A DNA stretch of 34,758 nt from Calditrichota bacterium (GTDB lineage Bacteria > Zhuqueibacterota > Zhuqueibacteria > Thermofontimicrobiales > Thermofontimicrobiaceae), in the NCBI GenBank assembly GCA_013152715.1, contig JAADFU010000020.1:1-34758 (forward strand), in the 5' to 3' direction. Shown here piece after piece: positions 14,710 to 29,186 of this stretch (its first letter is position 1; every line of letters starts with the position of its first letter). Below the pieces are notes generated by a model. It was not told the DNA's origin, made no database searches, and saw only the letters and a list, made by a program, of their open reading frames with translations. The position numbers and the translations under genes are program-made.

Positions 14710-16161
14710 ATGGCTAAGTTGATTTTTGAAATTAGTTCAGAAGGACGAAAAGGATATACCCTGCCGAAACCATTTGTTCCGAGAAAAAAACTTGATGAAA
14801 TGATCCCGAAAAAGTTTTTGCGTAAAAAAACGGCTCGTTTGCCGGAAGTGAGCGAAGTCGATGTCGTGCGCCATTTTGTTGAACTTTCGCAATTGAATTA
14901 TCACATCGACAAAGGATTTTACCCACTCGGCTCCTGCACCATGAAATACAATCCCAAAATAAACGAAGATGTTGCCAAAAGTTCTTGTTTTACAGATCTT
15001 CACCCGCTGCAGGACGCGGAACGCTCACAGGGAACATTAGCGCTAATGGACGAGCTTTCGCAATTTTTGTGCGAAATTGCCGGAATGAAGGCTGTCACTC
15101 TGCAGCCCGCAGCCGGCGCGCACGGTGAACTGACAGGACTGATGCTGATCCGCGCCTACCACGAAGACAAAGGAAATCCGCGAGAGACCGTACTCATTCC
15201 GGACTCTGCACACGGTACGAATCCCGCCAGTGCCACGATTTCGGGATACAAAGCCGTGCAAATAAAATCCAACGAAAATGGTCTGGTGGATCTGGAAAGC
15301 CTCAAAGCGAATTTGAATGAAAATACGGCGGCGCTCATGTTGACAAATCCCAACACGTTGGGTCTTTTTGAGTCTCAACTCAAAGAGATAAAAAAATTGC
15401 TCGATGAAGTGGGCGCGCTGCTGTACATGGACGGCGCCAACTTAAACGCACTGCTCGGCATCGTCCGTCCCGGCGATGTGGGCGTTGATGTGCTGCATTT
15501 CAATTTGCACAAAACTTTTTCCACACCGCACGGCGGCGGCGGCCCCGGTTCCGGCCCCGTTGGTGTTTCGGAGCGGCTGGTCGATTTTTTACCAGTGCCG
15601 AGAATTGTGAACAAAAACGGACAATTAGAACTTGATGAAAATTTCCCGAAATCCATCGGCAAAATTCACTCTTTTTATGGCAATTTTGGCGTGATGGCGA
15701 GAGCTTATGTTTACATTCGCATGTTGGGAAATCGAGGCTTGAAACGAGTCAGTGAAAATGCAATTGTCAACGCCAATTATCTAAAATCGCGGCTGAAGGA
15801 TTATTTCGACATGCCTTTTCCTGGTCCGGCGATGCACGAATTTGTTTTGTCCGGAAACAGTCAGAAGAAAAAAGGCGCGTCTACACTGGACATGGCAAAG
15901 CGCTTGCTGGATTATGGCATGCACGCGCCAACGATTTATTTTCCGCTCATTGTTCCGGAAGCATTGATGATCGAGCCGACGGAAACGGAATCGATTGAGA
16001 CGCTCGATGCATTTGCCGATGCGCTCATCCGGATCGCGAAAGAAATCGACGAAAATCCGGAACTTGTCAAACATGCGCCTCACACAACTCCGGTCAGCCG
16101 CCTGGACGAGGTAAAAGCCATTAAATCGCCTGATGTGCGATTTAATTTTGATGCGCAGTAA
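14710..16161 (+). CDS. gcvPB: Glycine dehydrogenase (decarboxylating) subunit 2, P-protein beta chain
   Basis: This 483-residue protein has the normal length for the C-terminal half of split P-protein. It shows [12 protein letters not shown] near residues 71-82, A-H-G-T-N-P-A-S, and [16 protein letters not shown], in which Lys268 should form the Schiff base with PLP. With GcvPA it decarboxylates glycine and loads the aminomethyl group on lipoyl-GcvH. GGAG lies about seven bases before the ATG. The usual companions gcvPA, gcvH and gcvT are absent on both sides, so they must be elsewhere if the cleavage system is complete. Confidence 0.97.
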
Positions 16162-16245: not shown

Positions 16246-17202
16246 ATGAACATGTTAAACGAGGCGGTAAAACAATCGACGGTGCTGGTCGTCGATGATT
16301 TGCCTTTGAACAGAAAGCTAGAGCGGCTATTTCTGGCGGAAGGTGGTTATCAGGTTATCTTTGCCGAAGATGGGATAGAGGCGCTGCAAAAAGTAAAGCG
16401 ACATTCCCCGGATTTAATCCTGTTAGACGTGATGATGCCGCGGATGGATGGCTTTCAGGTCTGCCGGCACATTAAAAATAATTTGCAGACAAGATTTATT
16501 CCCATCATTCTGGTGACTGCGCTCAATGAAATTGATTCTAAAATCAAAGGTATCGAAGCCGGGGCGGATGATTTTATTTCCAAGCCGTTCAATAAATTAG
16601 AATTGCTGGCGCGCGTCAAGTCGTTACTGCGGATCAAACATCTCAACCGGGAGCTGCAACAAAAAATCCGCCAGTTGGAAGAAGCGCAAATCAAGCTAAA
16701 GAAATTAGCCATCACTGACGGTTTGACAGGCGCTTACAACTACCGTTTTTTCAAAGAGCAACTGGAAAAAGAGCTCATTCGCGCCAGACGCCATAAAAAC
16801 CATGTCTCCATCGTCATGATGGATATTGATTTTTTTAAACAGTACAATGACACGCACGGTCATCCGGCGGGAGATTATGTACTGAGAACCATTGCGCAAA
16901 TTTTGAGAAATAATATTCGCAACATCGATATCGCCGCCAGATACGGCGGAGAGGAATTTACGCTCATCTTGATTGAGACGGACCACGGCGCAGCGGCTAT
17001 CGTCGCCGAAAAAATCAGAGGACTCATCGAAAAACATAATTTCAAATTTGAAAATTCGCAGCCTTCGGGAAAAATCACCGTCAGTATGGGGGTTTCGACA
17101 TTTCCCGAAGATGGAAAAACTTTCGAAGAATTGATCGATGCCGCTGATAAACGGCTGTATCAGGCGAAAGAGTTGGGAAGGAATCGCGTTGTAATAAAAT
17201 AA
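16246..17202 (+). CDS. Response regulator with diguanylate cyclase (REC-GGDEF)
   Basis: This 318-residue protein has a receiver domain at about 12-130 (D17-D18, phospho-acceptor D61 in L-L-D-V-M-M-P, and K in S-K-P-F), a short coiled coil, and a GGDEF domain at about 158-318. The active site reads G-G-E-E-F at 234-238, and R225-N-I-D228 upstream forms a product-inhibition I-site. It should make cyclic di-GMP when phosphorylated, with feedback control. An ATG six bases downstream is an equally possible start; GGGAGA lies just before both. The sensor kinase begins 27 bases downstream and is the likely phosphate donor. Confidence 0.95.
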   Translation: MNMLNEAVKQSTVLVVDDLPLNRKLERLFLAEGGYQVIFAEDGIEALQKVKRHSPDLILLDVMMPRMDGFQVCRHIKNNLQTRFIPIILVTALNEIDSKIKGIEAGADDFISKPFNKLELLARVKSLLRIKHLNRELQQKIRQLEEAQIKLKKLAITDGLTGAYNYRFFKEQLEKELIRARRHKNHVSIVMMDIDFFKQYNDTHGHPAGDYVLRTIAQILRNNIRNIDIAARYGGEEFTLILIETDHGAAAIVAEKIRGLIEKHNFKFENSQPSGKITVSMGVSTFPEDGKTFEELIDAADKRLYQAKELGRNRVVIK

Positions 17203-17228
17203 AGCTCATCTGATTGGGACAAAGTATT

Positions 17229-18680
17229 ATGGAGATTAAAGGCAAGTTTTCGCTAAAAATATTTTTATCGTTATTTGTTGTTATTTTCATCCCTGTCGCC
17301 ATTGTTTTTCTCAATTTGGCGCGTTTGCAATCTGATTCCGCTGCCGTCTCGCCGGAAGAAAATTTTTGGTTTTTCCTTATTGTATTGGCTGTCGCTATTG
17401 CCCTGGCAGCGCTGGCGACGCGCGCGCTGTGCAATTCATTGTACGAACGTATGCACAATTACAATAAAATCGCGCGCAAGATCGCCGGCGGACAATTCGA
17501 GCTTCGCATTCCAGTGGATGCGGACGACGAACTGGGAAAATTCGGCAGATTTTTTAACATGCTCACCAAAGAACACCATGAGATCAAAAAGAAAAACGTG
17601 GGCGAAAAATTGTTTGAGTGGGAAAAAATTCAAGCAATTTTGAAAAACATCGGCGATGGCGTCATCGTGATTGACAATTTCAACCGCATCGAATTGATGA
17701 ATGCTGTGTCTGAAAATTGGTTCAACGTGACTAAACAGGACTATCAGTCAATGGAGTTGGGCAAACTGATAACAGACGAAAAACTGCTCGGTCTCATCGA
17801 GAAAGTCAAAAACGGAACAAACACCAGCGAGGAAAAAGTTGAAATTGAAATTGTGCCGGAAAATCAGCGCCGCCCCATTATTTTACAAGCCATCGCAACG
17901 AAAGTGATTGGCGACAACCGCAAGCTTTTCGGGCTGGCGATTGCCCTGCGCGATCTCACGCGGGAGAAAGAAATTGATCGCAAAAAATCCGAAGTCGTGT
18001 CCATGGTTTCTCACGAACTCAGATCGCCGCTGACTTCGATCACTGGCTTCAGCGAGCTTCTTTTGGACGAAGGCGTCTCCCGGGAACAATCTCGCGAATA
18101 CACCGCCATCATCCTCAAAGAATCGCGCCGTTTGAGCGAGTTGATCAATAAATATCTGGACATTTCGCGCATCGAATCGGGCAAGTCCGAAATACACAAA
18201 ACGCCAGTGACCATGGACGACGTGATTCAAAGCGTCGTCAGCATGAACGCCTTCCTTTCTGATTCCAAAAATATTCAAACAAAAATTCGCTTTCCGGAGA
18301 AAGTTTCTCAGGTCAATGCCGATCGGCAAATGATGGGGGAAGTTATTTTGAATCTGTTTTCCAATGCGGTCAAGTACAGCCCACCGGACACGACGATCAC
18401 TATTTCCATTGAAGAAACCGGAAATGAACAAATCATTAGCGTCGCGGACCAAGGCTATGGCATATCGGAACAAGATTTGGACCGTATTTTTGATAAATTC
18501 TATCGCGCCACCGGATCGGCAGAAGTTCAGGAAGAAAAAGGAAGCGGACTGGGACTGGCGTTAGTGAAAGAAATCATTCACAGGCACAACGGTAGAGTCT
18601 GGGCGGAAAGCAGACCCAAACAAGGCTCCACTTTTTTCATCGCGCTGCCGATTATGGAAAAGGATGCGATATTATCTTAA
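17229..18680 (+). CDS. Membrane sensor histidine kinase (HAMP-PAS-HisKA-HATPase)
   Basis: This 483-residue kinase has two membrane helices close together (about 9-30 and 45-66) with only a tiny external loop, so it probably senses membrane or internal signals. A HAMP domain (about 68-118), a PAS domain (about 130-240) and HisKA with V-S-H-E-L-R-S-P-L follow; the phosphorylated residue is His262. The ATPase domain has an N-box N-L-F-S-N-A and G-S-G-L-G-L-A. A TTG at 17214 is also in frame; ATG at 17229 is preferred because it begins just before the first membrane helix. It probably forms an operon with the diguanylate cyclase. Confidence 0.93.
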   Translation: MEIKGKFSLKIFLSLFVVIFIPVAIVFLNLARLQSDSAAVSPEENFWFFLIVLAVAIALAALATRALCNSLYERMHNYNKIARKIAGGQFELRIPVDADDELGKFGRFFNMLTKEHHEIKKKNVGEKLFEWEKIQAILKNIGDGVIVIDNFNRIELMNAVSENWFNVTKQDYQSMELGKLITDEKLLGLIEKVKNGTNTSEEKVEIEIVPENQRRPIILQAIATKVIGDNRKLFGLAIALRDLTREKEIDRKKSEVVSMVSHELRSPLTSITGFSELLLDEGVSREQSREYTAIILKESRRLSELINKYLDISRIESGKSEIHKTPVTMDDVIQSVVSMNAFLSDSKNIQTKIRFPEKVSQVNADRQMMGEVILNLFSNAVKYSPPDTTITISIEETGNEQIISVADQGYGISEQDLDRIFDKFYRATGSAEVQEEKGSGLGLALVKEIIHRHNGRVWAESRPKQGSTFFIALPIMEKDAILS

Positions 18681-19168: not shown

Positions 19169-21202
19169 ATGGTATTATCGCCAAAAAATAAAAAAAATTT
19201 TTCATTGCGCCATCGCGATGGGATTGATGATTTAGAAAATTTCATTAATGATCATATTTACAAAAGCAGCCGCTCTGCCGTTCCGTTCAAAGTTTCCGAC
19301 GAGGCGAATGAAAAAAAGACAATCCTTCTCATTGACGACGATGCGGATATGATCGACATTGGCAGAAAGATTATCGTCTCAGCCGGATACAACTTCATTT
19401 CCGCCAGGGACGGACAAGAAGGGCTGGATTATGTCTTAAAATACAAACCGGATCTGATTCTGCTCGATTATGTGATGCCGGGGATGAATGGCGCCGAAGT
19501 TTTCCAACGACTTGTCACTGGCCAACGCTTTCGCCATCTTGGCCGGACGCCGGTCATCATGTTGACTGCCAAAAGCGAGTACGACCTCAATCGCACGGCC
19601 TTGTTCGAGATGGGGCTTTCTGCGTTTTTAGTGAAGCCCTTTGGACATCGCGAACTCATTAATGTCATCGACAATGTTTTCATTTTAAATCAAGTCCGTC
19701 AAAAAAACAAAGAACTCGAACAAAAAGTCAAACGCAGTGAATACAAATATCAGGATTTGATCGAAAACGCTAATGATTTGATTTATACGCTGAATCTGAA
19801 GGGCGATTTTATTTTCATCAATAGACGGTTGAGCACTTTGACCGGATTTTCTCGCGAGGATTGGTTTGGCCGCAGTTTTTTTGACCTCGTGGCGCCCGAG
19901 GATCGCATCGAAGCACGCAACAACTTCAATCAAACGTTGCGCGGTAAGGCAAGAATTTTTGAAATTCGACTGATCTGCAAAACCGGCAGTCCTCTTTTTC
20001 TTTCCATGAACATCAATCCGATTTACGAAAAAGGCGAAGTCATCGGAGCCATTGGCATCAGCCGCGACATTACCCAACGGAAACAATTGGAAGAAGAAAT
20101 TACTGAATTGAAAAATTTTAACGAAAGTATCATTCAAAGCATTGGCTCGGGTCTGATCACTCTGAATCTGAACAATCGAATTACATCGTTCAATAACAGC
20201 GCCGAGGAAATTTTGGGCTACAAGAGCGAAGAAATCGTCGGCAGATCCATCTACGATATTTTCCCGCGAGAAGAGTGCGAGCGGCTTGTCGCGCCCACGA
20301 ACAGCAATTATCGCTTTCCGCTCAATCGCGAAATGGAATTGACGCGAAGTGACGGCTCTCGCGTATTCATTGGCTACAGCGTCTTTTCTCGCATCGACAA
20401 TCACAATCTCCGCGTAGGTTCAATCATCTCTTTTCGCGACATTTCTCAGATTAAACAGATGCAAATGGAAGTCGTTCGCATGGACAGATTGGCGTCCATG
20501 GGCGTATTGGCGTCGGGTATCGCCCACGAAGTCCGAAATCCTCTGGCAGGCATCAAAACGATGGCGCAGACATTGGAAGAAGAAATGACGCCTCATGATT
20601 CGCGACGAGAATATCTGACGCGAATTATCAATCAGGTCAATCGTCTGGATGAGTTGCTGAAATCTTTGTTCAGTTTCGCCAAACCGCAGCAGCCCGATCG
20701 CAAGCTGCAGCGGCTGCCGGAAATTATCAGAGAAGTGGACATCCTTTTCGAGGAACGATTTAAGAAGAAAAACATTAAATACATAAAAAAATTGGACGCG
20801 AGTCTGCCAAAAATTTTTGTCGATTTTCATCAAATCCAGCAAGTATTCATCAATCTGTATCTGAATTCGCTGGATGCCATGCCCAAAGGCGGCGAATTTG
20901 AGATTTCCGCCGAACCCATTCGGACGATCATCTTTCCGCGCGACCGGCGAAAAAAGTTTTTTTTGGGCGAAAATAAGGAATCTTTGTACGTAGAAGTCAA
21001 AGTCCGCGATACCGGCGTGGGCATTAAGCCAGATGAAAAGAAAGTCATCTTCGACCCATTTTTCACCACAAAACCGCAGGGAACAGGCCTCGGGCTTTCA
21101 ATCGTCTATCGCATTGTTGAAGAGCACAGAGGCGAAATTTCCGTTGACAGCGAAACAGGAATAGGAACCACATTTACAATTTTATTACCGACCGAGGAGT
21201 AG
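19169..21202 (+). CDS. Hybrid kinase REC-PAS-PAS-HisKA-HATPase (NtrB-like)
   Basis: This 677-residue protein has no membrane helix. A charged 48-residue leader is followed by a receiver domain (about 50-168, D100 in L-L-D-Y-V-M-P, V-K-P-F), two PAS domains (about 188-305 and 311-430), HisKA with I-A-H-E-V-R-N-P-L-A-G-I (His453) and an ATPase domain ending G-T-G-L-G-L-S. The receiver at the N-terminus suggests that the kinase is itself an output of another kinase, perhaps the one upstream. The H-E-V-R-N-P-L motif is typical of NtrB/AtoS kinases that pair with sigma-54 activators, and such an activator begins seven bases after its stop. The ATG lacks a clear ribosome binding site, so the start is provisional. 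Confidence 0.93.
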   Translation: MVLSPKNKKNFSLRHRDGIDDLENFINDHIYKSSRSAVPFKVSDEANEKKTILLIDDDADMIDIGRKIIVSAGYNFISARDGQEGLDYVLKYKPDLILLDYVMPGMNGAEVFQRLVTGQRFRHLGRTPVIMLTAKSEYDLNRTALFEMGLSAFLVKPFGHRELINVIDNVFILNQVRQKNKELEQKVKRSEYKYQDLIENANDLIYTLNLKGDFIFINRRLSTLTGFSREDWFGRSFFDLVAPEDRIEARNNFNQTLRGKARIFEIRLICKTGSPLFLSMNINPIYEKGEVIGAIGISRDITQRKQLEEEITELKNFNESIIQSIGSGLITLNLNNRITSFNNSAEEILGYKSEEIVGRSIYDIFPREECERLVAPTNSNYRFPLNREMELTRSDGSRVFIGYSVFSRIDNHNLRVGSIISFRDISQIKQMQMEVVRMDRLASMGVLASGIAHEVRNPLAGIKTMAQTLEEEMTPHDSRREYLTRIINQVNRLDELLKSLFSFAKPQQPDRKLQRLPEIIREVDILFEERFKKKNIKYIKKLDASLPKIFVDFHQIQQVFINLYLNSLDAMPKGGEFEISAEPIRTIIFPRDRRKKFFLGENKESLYVEVKVRDTGVGIKPDEKKVIFDPFFTTKPQGTGLGLSIVYRIVEEHRGEISVDSETGIGTTFTILLPTEE

Positions 21203-21209
21203 AGATTAG

Positions 21210-22604
21210 ATGAAGGAACGAATTTTAATTGTTGACGATGAAGAAGATTTGACGTTAGGCTATTCCAAATGCCTCAGCAAAGTGGGCTATGAAGTATCGA
21301 GCGCCAGCTCGGGAGAACAGGCGTTAGATTTACTTCGCGAAGAAATTTTTGACCTTGTTTTTCTTGATATACGCCTTCCGAAATTAGACGGAATGGAAGT
21401 GTTGAAAAAAGCGCTGGAGATCGACCCGGACCTGATCGTGGTCATGATGACAGCGCACGGCAGCGTGGAGTCCGCGGTAGAAGCCATGCGCATGGGGGCG
21501 CATCATTATTTGATGAAAGGATTTGATCACGAAGAATTGCGCATGGTGGCGAAAAAGGCGCTGGAATTCGGTAATTTGCGCCGCGAAATTTCTCACTTGA
21601 AATTGCAGGATCGGCGACGCTACCCGGACACAGCAATTTTTGGCAACAGCCCAAAAATGCGAAAAATAAAAGATCTGATTAAAGTAGTCGCCAGAACTCC
21701 CAAGACGTCGGTGCTGATTCAGGGCGAAAGCGGGACGGGGAAAGAGCTTGTCGCCTGGGCGGTCCACAATTGGAGCGCACGGCGCGATAAGCCCATGATC
21801 CCGATCAATTGCAGCGCCATTCCGGAAACGCTGATGGAAAGCGAGCTTTTTGGTTTTGAGAAAGGCGCGTTTACCGACGCCAAAAGCATGAAAAAAGGCG
21901 TATTTGAATTGGCGCACGGCGGCACTATTTTTCTGGACGAAATTTCCAGCATGAATCCGACGCTGCAACCCAAATTGCTGCGCGTGATCGAAAGCCAGAG
22001 CTTCCGCCGCATCGGAGGCACATCTGACATTAAAATCAGCGTCCGCATCATCGCCGCCAGCAATCGCGATTTGTTTGAATGCGTCAAAGACGGCTCTTTC
22101 CGCGAAGACCTCTACTATCGCCTCAAGGTGATGGAAATTAACCTACCGCCGCTGAAGGAACGGTTGGAAGATATTATTCCCATGGCGAAACTTTTCATTG
22201 AGCAAAACAATAAAGAATTTTCTAAAAAAATCAGAGGCATCACCGAGCGCGCGCAGCAGCTTTTGATCAGCTACGACTGGCCCGGCAATGTGCGGGAACT
22301 CAAAAACATCATCGAGCGCGCAGCGATTTTATGCCAGGGAGACATAATTGATGTGGAGCATCTGGCGATTGAAATACAAAACGCGCCTCGAAAAGAGAAT
22401 ATTACAGTGCCTGAGATATCGATCCCCGACATTGAACCTGAACCGGCAAAACCGAAAGAACCGCTAACATTGCAGGAAGTGGAGAGAGAACACATCATTA
22501 AAACGCTGAACGAATTTAACGGCAACAAATCCAAAGCAGCCAGAGCCCTGCAAATCTCTCGATCTACGTTGCGGGAAAAGCTCAAACAATACGGCATCGA
22601 TTGA
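21210..22604 (+). CDS. NtrC-family sigma-54-dependent response regulator
   Basis: This 464-residue protein has a receiver (4-118; D9, D10, phospho-acceptor D53), a sigma-54 AAA+ domain (about 142-365; Walker A G-E-S-G-T-G-K-E at 172-179) and a Fis-type helix-turn-helix (about 420-464; N-K-S-K-A-A-R-A-L-Q-I-S-R-S-T-L-R). The sigma-54 contact loop reads G-A-F-T-D-A (219-224) instead of G-A-F-T-G-A, and the receiver's usual K-P pair is K-G. Activators of this class drive sigma-54 promoters in response to phosphorylation. The kinase directly upstream is its likely partner. A strong terminator follows. Confidence 0.95.
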   Translation: MKERILIVDDEEDLTLGYSKCLSKVGYEVSSASSGEQALDLLREEIFDLVFLDIRLPKLDGMEVLKKALEIDPDLIVVMMTAHGSVESAVEAMRMGAHHYLMKGFDHEELRMVAKKALEFGNLRREISHLKLQDRRRYPDTAIFGNSPKMRKIKDLIKVVARTPKTSVLIQGESGTGKELVAWAVHNWSARRDKPMIPINCSAIPETLMESELFGFEKGAFTDAKSMKKGVFELAHGGTIFLDEISSMNPTLQPKLLRVIESQSFRRIGGTSDIKISVRIIAASNRDLFECVKDGSFREDLYYRLKVMEINLPPLKERLEDIIPMAKLFIEQNNKEFSKKIRGITERAQQLLISYDWPGNVRELKNIIERAAILCQGDIIDVEHLAIEIQNAPRKENITVPEISIPDIEPEPAKPKEPLTLQEVEREHIIKTLNEFNGNKSKAARALQISRSTLREKLKQYGID

Positions 22605-23027: not shown

Positions 23028-23705
23028 ATGGATTACGTTTCCAAACGCATTTTGATCGTCGACGACGAAGAAGATCTGACATGGAGCCTGACACGGAACC
23101 TAAGGCGCACATTTGAAAATTTAAAAATCTATTCCACCACTTCCGGAAAAGAAGCCTATCAGATTCTGAAAACGAAAAAATTGGATCTGCTCATTTCCGA
23201 CATTAAGATGCCGGACATGGACGGATTGGCATTGTTGTCGTTCGTCAAAAAAAACAAACCCGACCTGAAAGTCATCCTGATGACTTCCTTCGAAAACCCG
23301 GACTATCGTCGTATCGCAGACGGCGTCCACGTCCATTTTTTTGAAAAACCTTTCGAAATCGAAAATCTGAAAAAACAGATTCAACAAATATTGCGCTTGA
23401 AAAACGGCTTGTCCGCAGAGGCACTTTCCGGACATAATTTGATAGATTTAATCAAAAATCTTTATCATATAAAATATAGCGGTTGTTTACGTGTACAAAA
23501 CGGCTGTTCGACCGGAGAAATCTATTTCAAAGCCGGCGTTATCATTGATGCAATTGCTAACAGATTATCCGGCGAAATGGCGCTCATTCATCTTTTGAGC
23601 TGGGAGCAAGTGGAAAAAGCGGAGAAATTAATCAATCTAAAACCAAAGCAACAAACCGTTTATTACGGTTGGAAAATGTTACAAAAAGAGCTGCTTGCAG
23701 CGTAA
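23028..23705 (+). CDS. Receiver domain fused to a DUF4388 (PATAN-like) domain
   Basis: This 225-residue protein has a receiver at about 6-125 (D12, D13, phospho-acceptor D58 in L-I-S-D-I-K-M-P, and K in F-E-K-P-F). A C-terminal domain at about 137-205 shows the S-G-C-L-R-V...G-E-I-Y-F-K-A-G-V-I-I-D-A pattern of DUF4388. DUF4388 is common in response regulators of delta-proteobacteria and FCB bacteria, often near small GTPases and polarity or motility genes, and is thought to bind partners rather than DNA. CAGGGAAAG lies before the ATG. The ParA gene follows after 29 bases, suggesting that the pair works together in protein positioning. Confidence 0.88.
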   Translation: MDYVSKRILIVDDEEDLTWSLTRNLRRTFENLKIYSTTSGKEAYQILKTKKLDLLISDIKMPDMDGLALLSFVKKNKPDLKVILMTSFENPDYRRIADGVHVHFFEKPFEIENLKKQIQQILRLKNGLSAEALSGHNLIDLIKNLYHIKYSGCLRVQNGCSTGEIYFKAGVIIDAIANRLSGEMALIHLLSWEQVEKAEKLINLKPKQQTVYYGWKMLQKELLAA

Positions 23706-23734: not shown

Positions 23735-24553
23735 ATGGGCGAAGTAATTGCCATTGTCAGCCAGAAAGGCGGCGTCGGCAAAACCACCACCGTCATTAAT
23801 TTAGGCGCCAGTCTGGCAGCGAAAGGCAAATCGGTATTGCTGATCGACATGGATCCGCAGCGGCAGGTGGCGGCGAGTTTTCATGTCAGCGACTACGAAT
23901 TGCCGTGGGGGATTTTGGATATTGTTGCCGACAAAAAAACGAGTGCAACGGACGCGGTCTTTCAGACGGCGGCGCCGAATTTGTGCCTCGCCACAATAAC
24001 GTCGGCCCGTTTTGACAAAAAAAAATCAGGTGAAATTTTGACTGAGCGAGAAGACAAATTGAAAGAAACCGTGGCAAAATTTGCCAATCAATACGATTTT
24101 GTATTGCTGGATTGTCCGTCTTCCTCGGGAAGTTTCACATCAGCGGCGTTGAAAATTGCAGACTCGTTGATCGTCCCGGTTCAATGCGAATATTATGCAA
24201 TTCGATCGCTGGGCATGTCGCTCAAATATATTCAGCAGATAAAAATTCGCCACAATCCGAAACTGCGCTATCGCGGAATTCTCATTACCATGGTGGATTT
24301 GCGCAGCCGCCTGGCGAAGATAGTCTGGGAGCGGCTTCAAGTTACTTTGGCCGGCGCGCTTTTCAAGACCTACATCCCGCGAAACATTCGTTTGGCCGAG
24401 GTGCCATTGTATGGCATGCCGGTACAACAAATTGACCGAAACAGTACAGGCGCGCAAAGCTATTTGCATCTGGCAGAGGAAATTTTGCATCAGCGCGGAA
24501 CACATGAATCAACTTCATTCAAAACGCCACTAAAAATGGCAAATAATTATTAA
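23735..24553 (+). CDS. ParA/Soj-family ATPase
   Basis: This 272-residue protein has the deviant Walker A of ParA/MinD ATPases, K11-G-G-V-G-K16-T-T-T, then D-M-D-P-Q and D-C-P-S-S. The signature Lys11 marks the ATP-sandwich dimer that binds DNA or membrane and makes gradients. The length and N-I-R-L-A-E-V-P-L-Y-G near the end match Soj-type ParA rather than MinD, and there is no MinD-type amphipathic tail. ATG at 23735 with AGGGG eight bases upstream is preferred over an earlier in-frame ATG at 23669 that overlaps the previous gene. No ParB gene is adjacent, so it probably positions a protein complex, not the chromosome. Confidence 0.93.
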   Translation: MGEVIAIVSQKGGVGKTTTVINLGASLAAKGKSVLLIDMDPQRQVAASFHVSDYELPWGILDIVADKKTSATDAVFQTAAPNLCLATITSARFDKKKSGEILTEREDKLKETVAKFANQYDFVLLDCPSSSGSFTSAALKIADSLIVPVQCEYYAIRSLGMSLKYIQQIKIRHNPKLRYRGILITMVDLRSRLAKIVWERLQVTLAGALFKTYIPRNIRLAEVPLYGMPVQQIDRNSTGAQSYLHLAEEILHQRGTHESTSFKTPLKMANNY

Positions 24554-24933: not shown

Positions 24934-25650
24934 ATGATACACTTGATTATGCAAAATTCGTTGACAAAGACCCTGATTGTCGTCACAATTTTGATGTTTG
25001 TTTTTATTACCAGTGTGAGTTTTTCCTATCATTATTATTCAAAAAGCGAAACATCAAAAAAGATGGAAAACCTTGAGCAGACTGCTTCGCAGATTCAGTC
25101 GGTTTTGGATATGAAGAGTAGGGAACAACACAATATCCAAAAGATCATCGCCATCATCAATATCTACAATCAGGATATGTCGTCGGAGCTCAAACATAAA
25201 ATTGCGCGCGAGATCAACAAAATGTGTCTGAAGTACACGAATTTGAACGTGGATTTGATTTGCGCGACGATTACGCACGAGAGCGCGCTAAGCTGGGATC
25301 CCAAAGTGGTCTCTCCGGTCGGCGCAATGGGCTTGATGCAAATCATGCCCGAGACCGGAATCAAATTGGCCGCAGAAGAAGGGACCAAATGGACTTCGGC
25401 GGAAGATATTCTGTTCGATCCGATCATTAATATTCGCCTCGGTTGTCGTTATCTGTCCCAACTGATTCAGGAATATGAAATAGACGGCGGATTGGCAGCG
25501 TACAATGGGGGCGAAAAACGGGCGAAACTCTGGCTCGAGAAACGAAATGACAAGAGCGATTTCACTTTGCTCTGGGAAGAGACGCAATTTTACGTTCCTT
25601 CCATTTTGAAACTTTACGCCCAATTTCAAAATCAAAAGAGCGTCTTTTGA
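24934..25650 (+). CDS. Membrane-anchored lytic transglycosylase (SLT domain)
   Basis: This 238-residue protein has an N-terminal membrane segment (about 12-33), a helical stalk (about 40-75) and a lysozyme-like SLT domain: A-T-I-T-H-E-S-A-L with the catalytic Glu near residue 114, S-P-V-G-A-M-G-L-M-Q-I-M-P-E-T-G, and L-A-A-Y-N-G-G. Such enzymes cut the glycan strand of peptidoglycan from the periplasmic side to make room for growth, division or envelope-spanning machines. The start is firm: GAGGAGG lies eight bases upstream. It sits between the ParA gene and the helical/FtsZ-like pair, which suggests that local wall cutting belongs to the same process. Confidence 0.93.
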   Translation: MIHLIMQNSLTKTLIVVTILMFVFITSVSFSYHYYSKSETSKKMENLEQTASQIQSVLDMKSREQHNIQKIIAIINIYNQDMSSELKHKIAREINKMCLKYTNLNVDLICATITHESALSWDPKVVSPVGAMGLMQIMPETGIKLAAEEGTKWTSAEDILFDPIINIRLGCRYLSQLIQEYEIDGGLAAYNGGEKRAKLWLEKRNDKSDFTLLWEETQFYVPSILKLYAQFQNQKSVF

Positions 25651-25750: not shown

Positions 25751-25829
25751 TCTTTTCAAATTCAACGCAACCATTGCGCTTGTTCTCCATTGACAAATGA
25801 GTGTAAATGACATCCGAGTAGAGGCAACG

Positions 25830-27500
25830 ATGACAACACAAAACAAATCATCTCTGGGGCGCGAATTTGTCGAAGAACTGATCAAGTTGTTCTTCAACCC
25901 AAAAAGCTATTTTTATCACACATTTGAAAAACTGCTCCGTCACAAACCGCTCCCTAAAAAGACCGCTGACGCGCGAGCCATCGAATTGATGGGTAGCTTG
26001 TTATTTTTGTTAAGCCGAGCAAACAACGCCAATGGCGTCCTCAAGGAAGTAAGTCAACTCAAAGGGTTTGAAGATGTTTATTCTTCGCTGGAAAATGAAC
26101 TGATTACGATTCGATTAGAACAATTGGACAAAGAAGACACCAAAAAATTCATTTCAGAATTAGCCGCCAAAACCTTTGCTCAATGGAAGCGCCGGTTATC
26201 TAATCCTTCATTTCATAATTACTTGCGCGCTTATATTAAATTAAAAGAGAGTTTGTTTAATTTGCTGGAAAACACAAACGCTTCGGACACATATCTGGAC
26301 GCAGGAGACATCGACAATCTTCTGCTGGATAAAAATCCCATTTCGCTGTTTGACAATTCAGCGCTAGCGGAAAAGCGCGAAAAGACGCATCAGAAAGAAA
26401 ATAACGCTTTTAGAAAATTTTTCGGAGAAGAGCTGAAAAGTACGCTTGAACCGATAAACACAGATTTTCAAGAAATTCGCGCGAAAGACACGCAAGCTGC
26501 TTATCTGCAATCCGTGCAGGAAATTTTTCAGAAAATTCTTGAACTGGCAAACTTCCACGATTACGTCAATGTCAAACAAATCTGTCAAGAGACATTAGCT
26601 TTTTTGGATAGAGTTTCACAACCGACGCATCTCTTTAGCAAAAATGACTACAATTTATTGCAGGCGGCGCGCGTCCAGATCGTTAACTCCGTCGCTAAAC
26701 CTAACTCCAATGGACTGCATGAATTTCTCGACGCTATCAGGCGCGGCAAATTTGATCCGCCCGTTGAAAAAACGCCGGAAGACAAACCGGACGCAGCCTG
26801 GAAAGATAGCCAGGTCGAATACAACACAATGATTACTCCGCAATCTGAGCCTGAAGCCGAGCCAGAAAATACAGCAGAAAGCAACGAAACAAGCCAGCCT
26901 TCTCTTGACGATGAGGAGGAAATTCATTTTGCGCTGCCCGGCGAAGATAGCGAAGAAGTAATAAACCTGATCAAAGACGTGAGTCTTTCCGTCAATCTTC
27001 CGCAAACGCGTGAACCCGACAAAACGAAACACGACGATTCGGACAAAACACCGACGCCCCCCATCGACTATCAGTCGCTCAAAGGCGCGACAGAGCGGGA
27101 GGCGCATCAGACTTTTGCCCAACAGGCAAAACCAATGGCGAAAATAATTTTTGATTCTTTGAAATTACTCAAAGAAGACTACCATCGGCATGCGCAGCGC
27201 ATCGAAGACATTGAGTTGGCGAGCGCCTCTCTGAAGCATCTTGCCCGAAAGCTCAATTTGCACAAACTCGCCTTCTTCCCAGAATTGGTGGAGTCCATTT
27301 GTATTAATGTGAGCGCGGCTGAATTGAAAATTCCAACTGGATTTTTGGCGTCTATCGCCAAAGGAGTCAAGCATTTAATTTCTTACAATCCGGACGACGA
27401 AAGCCATGAGGCAATACTCATCGACATTCTTTCTGACTTGAAACGATATTACGCGCACACGGTCAAGGTGATCGAACAAACACAATTAGCGTCTTCATAG
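25830..27500 (+). CDS. Unrecognised helical protein with a C-terminal HPt-like region lacking its His
   Basis: This soluble protein of about 556 residues has no signal peptide. It is helical at about 1-150, helical again at about 205-300, acidic and disordered at about 310-420 (many Pro, Glu, Asp), and helical at about 430-550. The last part reads A-S-A-S-L-K-H-L-A-R-K-L and aligns by eye with the HPt/CheA-P1 helix R-A-A-H-S-I-K-G; Ala466 falls where the phospho-accepting His would be. The alignment is weak and needs a profile search. The start at 25830 has GAGG five bases upstream, while the ATG at 25797 has none. It lies 36 bases before the FtsZ-like gene, so the two are very probably co-expressed. 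I do not recognise the family. Confidence 0.8.
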   Translation: MTTQNKSSLGREFVEELIKLFFNPKSYFYHTFEKLLRHKPLPKKTADARAIELMGSLLFLLSRANNANGVLKEVSQLKGFEDVYSSLENELITIRLEQLDKEDTKKFISELAAKTFAQWKRRLSNPSFHNYLRAYIKLKESLFNLLENTNASDTYLDAGDIDNLLLDKNPISLFDNSALAEKREKTHQKENNAFRKFFGEELKSTLEPINTDFQEIRAKDTQAAYLQSVQEIFQKILELANFHDYVNVKQICQETLAFLDRVSQPTHLFSKNDYNLLQAARVQIVNSVAKPNSNGLHEFLDAIRRGKFDPPVEKTPEDKPDAAWKDSQVEYNTMITPQSEPEAEPENTAESNETSQPSLDDEEEIHFALPGEDSEEVINLIKDVSLSVNLPQTREPDKTKHDDSDKTPTPPIDYQSLKGATEREAHQTFAQQAKPMAKIIFDSLKLLKEDYHRHAQRIEDIELASASLKHLARKLNLHKLAFFPELVESICINVSAAELKIPTGFLASIAKGVKHLISYNPDDESHEAILIDILSDLKRYYAHTVKVIEQTQLASS

Positions 27501-27536: not shown

Positions 27537-29186
27537 ATGGGCAAAGGCGGCATTTTTAAGGACAGGCAGACAAAACCAAAAACTAACGACGAAGAACTGG
27601 AAAATCTCATTAAAATGCACCAGACCGTCATCAAGGTTGTGGGGACTGGCGGTGCTGGAAATAACACTATCTCCCGATTGAAAGAAATTGACATCCAGGG
27701 GATTGAAACCGTCGCCGTGAACACGGACGCTCAGGATTTGTTGTTCACAAAATCAGAAAATAAATTGCTCATTGGAAAAACTGTCACCCGCGGCTTGGGC
27801 GCCGGAAGTGACCCGCAGATCGGAGAAGAAGCTGCCAGAGAAAACGAGGAAGAAATTAAGGCTTTTCTGAAGGGCGCGGACATTGTTTTTGTCACTTGCG
27901 GCCTCGGCGGCGGAACAGGAACGGGCTCGGCGCCGGTCATTGCAGAAATCGCTCGCAGTCTGGAAACGCTCACCATCGCTGTCGTAACAATGCCTTTCAC
28001 AGACGAAGGCACGCTTAAAAATGACAATGCCAGCGGCGGTTTAGAAAAATTACGCAAAAACGCGGATACTGTCATTGTCATTAAAAATGATCGCTTACTC
28101 GAATTAGTCCCTGATTTGCCGATAAACGCCGCCTTTAAAGTCGCTGACGAAATTCTCGTCAACGCGGTAAAAGGAATCACCGAGTTGATCACCAAAAAAG
28201 GGCTCGTAAATCTGGATTTCGCCGACGTCAAGACAATCATGAAAAACGGCGATACGGCAATGATTGGCATCGGCGAAAGCGACGCGGAAAATAGAGTTGA
28301 AGACTCCGTCAGGCTGGCCATTAGCAATCCCCTTCTCGACATTGACATTACCGGAGCCAAAAGCGCCCTGTTGCACATTGAGGGCGACGACTCTCTGACT
28401 ATCAGCGACGCCAGAAATATCATGGTCGCAATTTCCCGAAAATTGGACCCCAACGCCAAAATTGTCTGGGGCGCCAGCATCAATCCTGATATCAAAAATA
28501 AAATTAAAGTGCTCATTATCGCCACCGGATTAGATCCGTCGGCGCAAAACAAGCGGAAAGCGCAAATTTCCGTTTCAGTCCCTAAAGCCGCCAAAAGTCC
28601 AACCGAGATTCTGAACGCCACCGCCGATACTTCTGCCCAATCCGTGGCAATAAATGGCGCCGAGAAAAAAGAGAAACCGAACAAAAATGTTTTTCACCAA
28701 ATTTTCGAAGACGATATCAAGGGTGATCTGAATATTATGCGCGAGGCGATTGCGATTTTAACGATGAGCCCCAGCGACACTCATGCATTGCGCAACATCA
28801 AAAATGCAGCGAGCGGCATCAAAAGCGCCGCCCAGCTTTACGCCAACAAGCCGGTGGAAGATTTCGCAACGTTCATCGCAGATTTGTTTGACCTGATTGT
28901 TTCGGATCGGCTGGCGTTTCATGCCGGATTTTTAAATTTGATGAAAAAAGTGCCGCTGATCATGGAAGGCATGATTTCCGGCTACACTGTCGCTATCGAT
29001 GACGCGCAGCAAGTCATTGAGCAGATGAGTTTGCTGCTGGATCAGGACGGCGCGAAAAAGAACAAGCCTGCGGCGCCAAAGCCGCCGGAAAAAGATTCCA
29101 ACGGCACACCCGAAGATGACGCGGACGATGATTTTTTAATTGACACTTCGGACTTGGAAGATCATTTGCGAATGGATTTGAATTAG
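27537..29186 (+). CDS. FtsZ-family tubulin-like GTPase fused to an HPt-like domain
   Basis: This is a 549-residue protein. Residues about 27-340 are a full FtsZ core: V-G-T-G-G-A-G-N-N-T, N-T-D-A-Q-D, tubulin signature G-G-G-T-G-T-G at 124-130, and the T7 synergy loop N225-L-D227-F-A-D230 with both catalytic Asp residues. A linker (about 345-390) leads to a helical domain (about 395-505) that aligns by eye with CheA-P1/HPt: N-A-A-S-G-I-K-S-A-A versus R-A-A-H-S-I-K-G-G-A, so Ser426 replaces the phosphorylated His. The usual short FtsA/ZipA-binding tail of FtsZ is not evident; the end is acidic. Several motifs (A-G-N-N-T, G-T-G-S-A-P, L-V-P-D-L-P-I, P-N-A-K-I-V-W-G-A) resemble archaeal FtsZ. 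It should polymerise with GTP, probably as a second FtsZ. GAGGA lies before the ATG. Confidence 0.9.
   Translation: MGKGGIFKDRQTKPKTNDEELENLIKMHQTVIKVVGTGGAGNNTISRLKEIDIQGIETVAVNTDAQDLLFTKSENKLLIGKTVTRGLGAGSDPQIGEEAARENEEEIKAFLKGADIVFVTCGLGGGTGTGSAPVIAEIARSLETLTIAVVTMPFTDEGTLKNDNASGGLEKLRKNADTVIVIKNDRLLELVPDLPINAAFKVADEILVNAVKGITELITKKGLVNLDFADVKTIMKNGDTAMIGIGESDAENRVEDSVRLAISNPLLDIDITGAKSALLHIEGDDSLTISDARNIMVAISRKLDPNAKIVWGASINPDIKNKIKVLIIATGLDPSAQNKRKAQISVSVPKAAKSPTEILNATADTSAQSVAINGAEKKEKPNKNVFHQIFEDDIKGDLNIMREAIAILTMSPSDTHALRNIKNAASGIKSAAQLYANKPVEDFATFIADLFDLIVSDRLAFHAGFLNLMKKVPLIMEGMISGYTVAIDDAQQVIEQMSLLLDQDGAKKNKPAAPKPPEKDSNGTPEDDADDDFLIDTSDLEDHLRMDLN

Follow-up and report, generated by a model that had tools for sequence, protein, structure and literature searches.

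Histidine-less HPt domains shared by MidP, a putative adaptor, and a second FtsZ in KSB1/Calditrichota bacteria

Two adjacent genes from an uncultured Calditrichota bacterium encode a helical protein of 567 residues and an additional FtsZ, which between them almost certainly carry three HPt folds that are dead as phosphotransfer modules. We refer to the 567-residue protein as MidP and to the neighbouring FtsZ paralogue as FtsZ2. Two of the folds lie in MidP and the third forms the tail of FtsZ2. The window is a DNA stretch of 34,758 nucleotides, and the pair sits in it next to a set of two-component signalling genes. Our preferred reading, to which we assign a probability of about 0.5, is that receiver domains may dock on these pseudo-HPt domains and so control FtsZ2 and local cutting of the cell wall. 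The features of the pair are as follows.

25830–27500, forward strand: MidP gene (ORF from 25797; homologue starts; family profile match at 25830–27497, E = 6e-151)
25833–26276, forward strand: N-terminal helical domain of MidP, residues 13–160 (AlphaFold2; conservation)
26358–26744, forward strand: predicted pseudo-HPt 1 of MidP, residues 188–316, with Q245 at the His position (26529–26531) (AlphaFold2; PDB profile search; His column; hhalign)
26934–26987, forward strand: linker motif of MidP, LPGED-x-E-x-x-x-L-I-x-x-h, residues 380–397 (homologue conservation; AlphaFold2)
27093–27494, forward strand: predicted pseudo-HPt 2 of MidP, residues 433–566, with A477 at the His position (27225–27227) (AlphaFold2; PDB profile search; His column)
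27537–29186, forward strand: FtsZ2, complete FtsZ GTPase core followed by a pseudo-HPt at the C-terminus (Pfam Tubulin 3.4e-45, FtsZ_C 5.9e-29)
28689–29060, forward strand: predicted pseudo-HPt of FtsZ2, residues 385–508, with S426 at the His position (AlphaFold2; PDB profile search, E = 1.5e-11; His column)

The MidP reading frame (25797–27500) contains two in-frame start codons, ATG 25797 and ATG 25830. Judging by where homologues start and by the family profile, the second is the likelier, as an earlier note on this DNA had it, and the coordinates agree with the 36-bp gap that it gave between the MidP stop codon and the FtsZ2 start at 27537. MidP residue numbers are counted here from ATG 25797. 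AlphaFold2 models the protein as three helical domains (13–160, 188–316 and 433–566) separated by low-confidence linkers; the second and third are compact blocks with pLDDT values mostly between 80 and 97. The N-terminal domain contains a conserved E-L-I-x-R-F-F-x-x-x-S-Y-F motif and is helical but unassigned to a family. That it might be a third HPt is ruled out by profile-profile comparison with the second HPt (prob 0.2), and a match to the N-terminal domain of TFIIS (E = 4.7e-5) is weak and unproven, because designed helical proteins score equally. The linker around the LPGED motif is acidic, otherwise unalignable and of low confidence (predicted disordered), with a short AlphaFold2 helix at 386–397. 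PG[ED][DENS] is present in 24 of 25 homologues, typically as LPGED-x-E-L-x-x-L-I-x-E-I, and is probably a short docking motif.

Pfam returns nothing credible for the single MidP sequence (a DnaB_C match is spurious), so the HPt domains of MidP are invisible without a family profile. Profiles of the three domains were compared with 177,635 PDB sequences. The C-terminal domain of MidP matches CheA P1 of T. maritima (2ld6, E = 8.9e-9; 1tqg, E = 1.7e-8), the middle domain matches the same chains (E = 1.2e-7 and 2.5e-6), and the FtsZ2 tail matches CheA P1 at E = 1.5e-11, with further CheA P1 chains at 1.8e-9 to 3.2e-8. Thus the three profiles independently find mostly CheA P1, or designs of that type, as their best matches. 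The reversed C-terminal alignment of MidP gave no match at E ≤ 10 in the same database. The pseudo-HPt profiles also match one another in hhalign (A5-A8, E = 2.7e-12; A5-A7, E = 8e-11; A7-A8, E = 3.2e-6), and here too the reversed control found no match (prob 1.2). In the models, MidP shows the up-and-down bundle of four to five helices that characterises HPt domains (PF01627/CheA P1), and the FtsZ2 tail is a helical bundle. With MidP as query against the PDB, Foldseek places CheA P1 or CheA-P1-like bundles on top with a probability of 1.00, among them 1tqg (TMt 0.80, rmsd 2.4 Å).

Could this resemblance be a chance match between helical bundles? Four-helix bundles do give generic matches, the Foldseek E-values are only 0.07–1, and the Pfam Hpt gathering score is reached by neither protein (no match for MidP; 12.6 bits against a cut-off of 24.6 for FtsZ2), with a single hit (E = 0.015) among the 25 MidP homologues. 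Such a coincidence is scarcely credible given that three separate profiles converge on CheA P1 and the reversed control is empty. Furthermore, the whole-MidP profile recognises bona fide CheA proteins of the phylum by their HPt domain, including one in the genome of the window. We conclude that the middle and C-terminal domains of MidP and the tail of FtsZ2 are, by profile homology, CheA-P1-type HPt folds beyond chance. The earlier note had aligned the C-terminus of MidP by eye with the HPt pattern, had suspected a second degenerate copy at about residues 205–300 and had attributed a His-less HPt to the neighbouring FtsZ-like protein. All three proposals are borne out, both MidP regions having an HPt-like fold by AlphaFold2 and by profile.

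None of these domains contains the phosphorylatable histidine of a phosphotransferring HPt. At the corresponding alignment column, His occurs in 0 of 25 homologues of the C-terminal MidP domain (A, A, V, S, S, Y, N, Y and so on; A477 in the window, the Ala466 of the earlier note), in 0 of the same 25 for the middle domain (Q245) and in 0 of 34 for the FtsZ2 tail (S426). The replacing residues vary freely (A, S, Y, N, K, L, E, Q and others), and despite the loss of His the flanking pattern E-D-L-E-L-A-x-x-S-L-K and the fold residues stay conserved. Because His is absent from every homologue and the fold residues are kept, the His-less state must be old and maintained rather than the product of recent decay. 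An HPt fold conserved without its histidine is what defines a pseudo-HPt of the AHP6 type, and the domains of MidP and FtsZ2 match this description. Phosphotransfer through another residue, or through another histidine of the domains, is very improbable: the column three positions after the His site does hold His in 4 of 34 FtsZ2 homologues, but the canonical column holds none in 25, 25 and 34 sequences and its occupant is unconstrained.

The core of FtsZ2 is intact. The GTP-binding glycine motif (G124-G126/T127) and the T7-loop residues N225, D227 and D230 are invariant in 34 homologues, so FtsZ2 is expected to polymerise and to hydrolyse GTP. The protein is about 44% identical to canonical FtsZ. 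In a core tree of 35 FtsZ2 and 18 canonical FtsZ sequences from the phylum, built without the wrong-frame ORF of L154, the two groups form separate clades with 100/100 support. The genome of the window contains two FtsZ genes; the canonical one (L033:5363-6577) follows the order MraY-FtsW-FtsQ-FtsA-FtsZ and its product ends in a canonical-looking C-terminal peptide. The FtsA/ZipA-binding peptide pattern was present in 15 of the 18 canonical FtsZ sampled and in the last 120 residues of none of the FtsZ2 scanned. With a separate clade, a canonical FtsZ elsewhere in the genome and no FtsA peptide, FtsZ2 is an additional FtsZ that is probably not anchored by FtsA. The C-termini of FtsZ2 carry two lineage-specific tail motifs: V-x-x-x-V-x-Y-h-x-x-L-L-type peptides in many (L039, L046, L049, L053, L114), and L-x-x-x-L-x-M-[DE]-L-N in others, including the window. 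In family f13 (L104, L105) FtsZ2 measures about 785 residues and the regulators of the cluster are missing from its surroundings; in L104 it lies among glycosyltransferase, heparinase and AMP-binding genes, and has possibly been repurposed.

The distribution of the two genes was examined in 82 species genomes of KSB1/Calditrichota. A search with the single MidP sequence found matches in 29 of them, and the profile of 25 homologues in 49, many of the latter being FtsZ2 tails, CheA proteins or the product of a third gene described below. Read by eye, the match table places MidP itself in 32 of the 82 genomes (about 40%). When about 85,000 species genomes were searched for MidP peptide motifs by exact pattern, an approach that may miss diverged relatives outside the phylum, 14 loci came up, mostly labelled KSB1 or Calditrichaeota/Calditrichota and in a few cases "bacterium", Bacteroidetes or Deferribacteres. 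We infer that all 14 belong to this phylum and that the Bacteroidetes and Deferribacteres labels are wrong.

FtsZ2 is present in 31 of the 32 MidP genomes, the exception being a 560-contig assembly in which MidP is cut by a contig end. The two genes are adjacent in the sampled loci wherever a contig covers both. Conversely, 19 of the 50 FtsZ2 genomes have no detectable MidP, and 31 genomes have neither gene. Fisher's exact test gives p = 2e-8 for the 82 genomes and p = 1e-6 for those at least 90% complete (counts 21/0/12/20), both values being inflated by shared ancestry. The co-occurrence suggested in the earlier note is hence one-sided: MidP practically needs FtsZ2, and MidP is no general requirement for FtsZ2. 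We consider it very probable that MidP works with FtsZ2. In one genome (G024, locus L121) the signalling genes of the cluster are kept, FtsZ2 is gone and only short MidP remnants are found beside the regulators, as if both had been lost together.

Upstream of MidP, the window contains the following genes.

16246–17202, forward strand: receiver-GGDEF (diguanylate cyclase) response regulator (Pfam; synteny)
17214–18680, forward strand: second histidine kinase (Pfam; synteny)
19169–21202, forward strand: histidine kinase with N-terminal receiver and two PAS domains (Pfam; synteny)
21210–22604, forward strand: NtrC-type sigma-54 activator (Pfam; synteny)
23028–23705, forward strand: receiver-DUF4388 protein (Pfam Response_reg 1e-21, DUF4388 1.7e-7; synteny)
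23735–24553, forward strand: ParA/MinD-type ATPase (Pfam AAA_31 5.4e-41; start codon inferred; synteny)
24934–25650, forward strand: lytic transglycosylase (SLT) with an N-terminal hydrophobic segment (Pfam SLT 2.2e-21; conserved upstream neighbour)

This order, from receiver-GGDEF through both kinases, NtrC, REC-DUF4388, ParA and SLT to MidP and FtsZ2, recurs in loci from about 30 genomes. Several families have a stand-alone receiver between ParA and SLT. The 380-bp gap at this position in the window has none in any forward frame, and the receivers of the window are limited to REC-DUF4388 and those built into the other regulators. Among the receivers of the cluster, including those adjoining FtsZ2, the Asp and the later Lys are kept where the pattern is readable (14 of 16). 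Families f18–f20, f22 and f23 have a reduced cluster without ParA, SLT and MidP, in the order GGDEF-HK-HK-NtrC-FtsZ2, usually with a stand-alone receiver before FtsZ2, so that a receiver becomes the immediate neighbour of a pseudo-HPt. In most of the reduced clusters examined (L107–L113, L120, L122) this receiver lies directly 5' of FtsZ2. Several have a glycine dehydrogenase subunit gene upstream, as does the window (14710–16161), and one (L110) is followed by translation genes (thrS-type synthetase, IF-3, L20, pheS, pheT). A partial cluster in genome G056 (L106) has FtsZ2 directly after SLT, with no MidP between them and no ParA.

The two kinases of the cluster raise the question whether they, rather than receivers, are the partners of the pseudo-HPt domains. 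Since the natural partners of CheA P1 are the CheA kinase core and receivers, the domains might bind the catalytic or dimerisation domain of a histidine kinase as pseudo-substrates, and either inhibit it or tether it to FtsZ2 filaments. The cluster kinases are, however, ordinary HisKA enzymes and not of the CheA type, and we regard this binding mode as improbable.

In many families a third gene follows 3' of FtsZ2 and encodes one or two further His-less HPt-like domains (for example L043:5999-7207, L039:47-1270, L053:11915-12766 and L114:6187-6993, among others). It is missing from the family of the window. All 24 genomes with this gene also carry MidP. The encoded protein contains an F[DE]I[KR]E motif in 13 of 13 cases, and the motif recurs in many FtsZ2 linkers. 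In several families it ends in a basic, amphipathic-looking helix like those of membrane-targeting tails (PFIVRLKKIFGMY, GLFHKISRLFGG), of which the hydrophobic moment is no better than that of shuffled sequences in most members. The recurrent tail pattern is suggestive of a candidate membrane anchor for FtsZ2.

How may these proteins work together? MidP is very probably the partner of an extra FtsZ that is specific to this phylum, and we surmise that it would act as an adaptor, close to the scaffold for receivers or hetero-assemblies that the earlier note had proposed. Receivers encoded in the cluster would, once phosphorylated, dock on the pseudo-HPt domains of MidP and FtsZ2; these cannot accept phosphate and would offer a binding site where a true HPt would pass the phosphate on. 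Such binding would change how FtsZ2 filaments assemble, bundle or localise, ParA would place the complex, and the transglycosylase would cut peptidoglycan there. The outcome would be a signal-controlled site of cytoskeletal activity and wall remodelling, separate from normal division. HPt homology, the conserved pairing, intact receivers in the cluster and an intact FtsZ core support the docking model. The window without a stand-alone receiver, the 19 genomes with FtsZ2 and no MidP, and f13, where FtsZ2 has no regulators beside it, speak against it. For the putative binding of receivers to the pseudo-HPts taken alone, the odds are about even; local wall remodelling as the output falls somewhat short of that.

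The main rival holds that the pseudo-HPt domains are assembly modules only, that MidP and FtsZ2 associate bundle to bundle (hetero-assembly or filament cross-linking) and that the receivers act elsewhere, for example on transcription via NtrC. HPt-type bundles can dimerise. The FtsZ2 tail and both MidP bundles are related to one another, neighbouring genes encode three to five domains of this type, and f13 retains the FtsZ2 bundle without cluster receivers, all of which is consistent with this explanation. By contrast, stand-alone receivers with an intact Asp recur in the cluster, and in reduced clusters they stand beside FtsZ2, which makes a purely structural role unlikely, if still to be reckoned with. 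Returning to receiver docking, its boldest form is a tentative proposal: a tubulin-family filament may be gated directly by response regulators docking on its own pseudo-HPt and on those of a dedicated scaffold. With a ParA and a wall hydrolase to itself, it would form another Z-system, one that responds to signals and dates back to the common ancestor of much of the phylum. If true, kinases and receivers would act directly on a tubulin-family cytoskeleton, and not via transcription or a separate inhibitor. About 40% of the phylum's sampled species genomes encode MidP, and its family, unseen by Pfam, gains a fold and a working hypothesis.

The MidP-FtsZ2 pair, conserved in much of the phylum, has the look of a cytoskeletal system under signal control that has yet to be described. 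In the literature searched, beyond which lie many subscription papers, we found no FtsZ with an HPt-type tail or two-component docking domain, no description of the MidP-FtsZ2 cluster and nothing relevant on FtsZ in KSB1/Calditrichota. Several known systems offer partial parallels. CheA P1 (T. maritima 1tqg/2ld6, Salmonella 1i5n) shares fold and sequence profile with the MidP and FtsZ2 domains, and the Leu-Lys around its active site is partly retained in the second domain of MidP. In contrast to CheA P1, these domains lack the phosphorylatable His and a kinase core, and are housed in a linker-rich adaptor and an FtsZ. FimL is related to the His-less HPt region of PilL/ChpA. The Pseudomonas polar hubs FimL/FimV localise the receiver PilG (PMC12632253); compared by description, they resemble MidP as hubs beside a chemotaxis-like pathway that position a receiver, but their system has no FtsZ, ParA or transglycosylase. 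The plant pseudo-HPt AHP6 retains the HPt fold with its conserved His mutated and intervenes in a phosphorelay without itself accepting phosphate (PMC3572949). Unlike MidP and FtsZ2, it is a free-standing eukaryotic inhibitor of independent lineage with no link to a cytoskeletal GTPase. Second FtsZ paralogues with a distinct tail and role, as here, occur as archaeal FtsZ1/FtsZ2 (PMC8187382) and in Odinarchaeota (PMC12583498); by description, the pseudo-HPt tail and the two-component context set FtsZ2 of this phylum apart from them. FtsZl1 and FtsZl2 are FtsZ-superfamily proteins found beside conventional FtsZ, with a conserved gene context for FtsZl1 (PMC2875224). Their cores are highly diverged and their partners differ (vWA and others), whereas FtsZ2 has a full FtsZ core; the FtsZ_C match at E = 5.9e-29 speaks against its being a protein of this kind, which would lack a recognisable second domain. 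AHP6, FimL/FimV, the second FtsZs and the FtsZl families thus each share one feature with the MidP-FtsZ2 system, and none combines them all.
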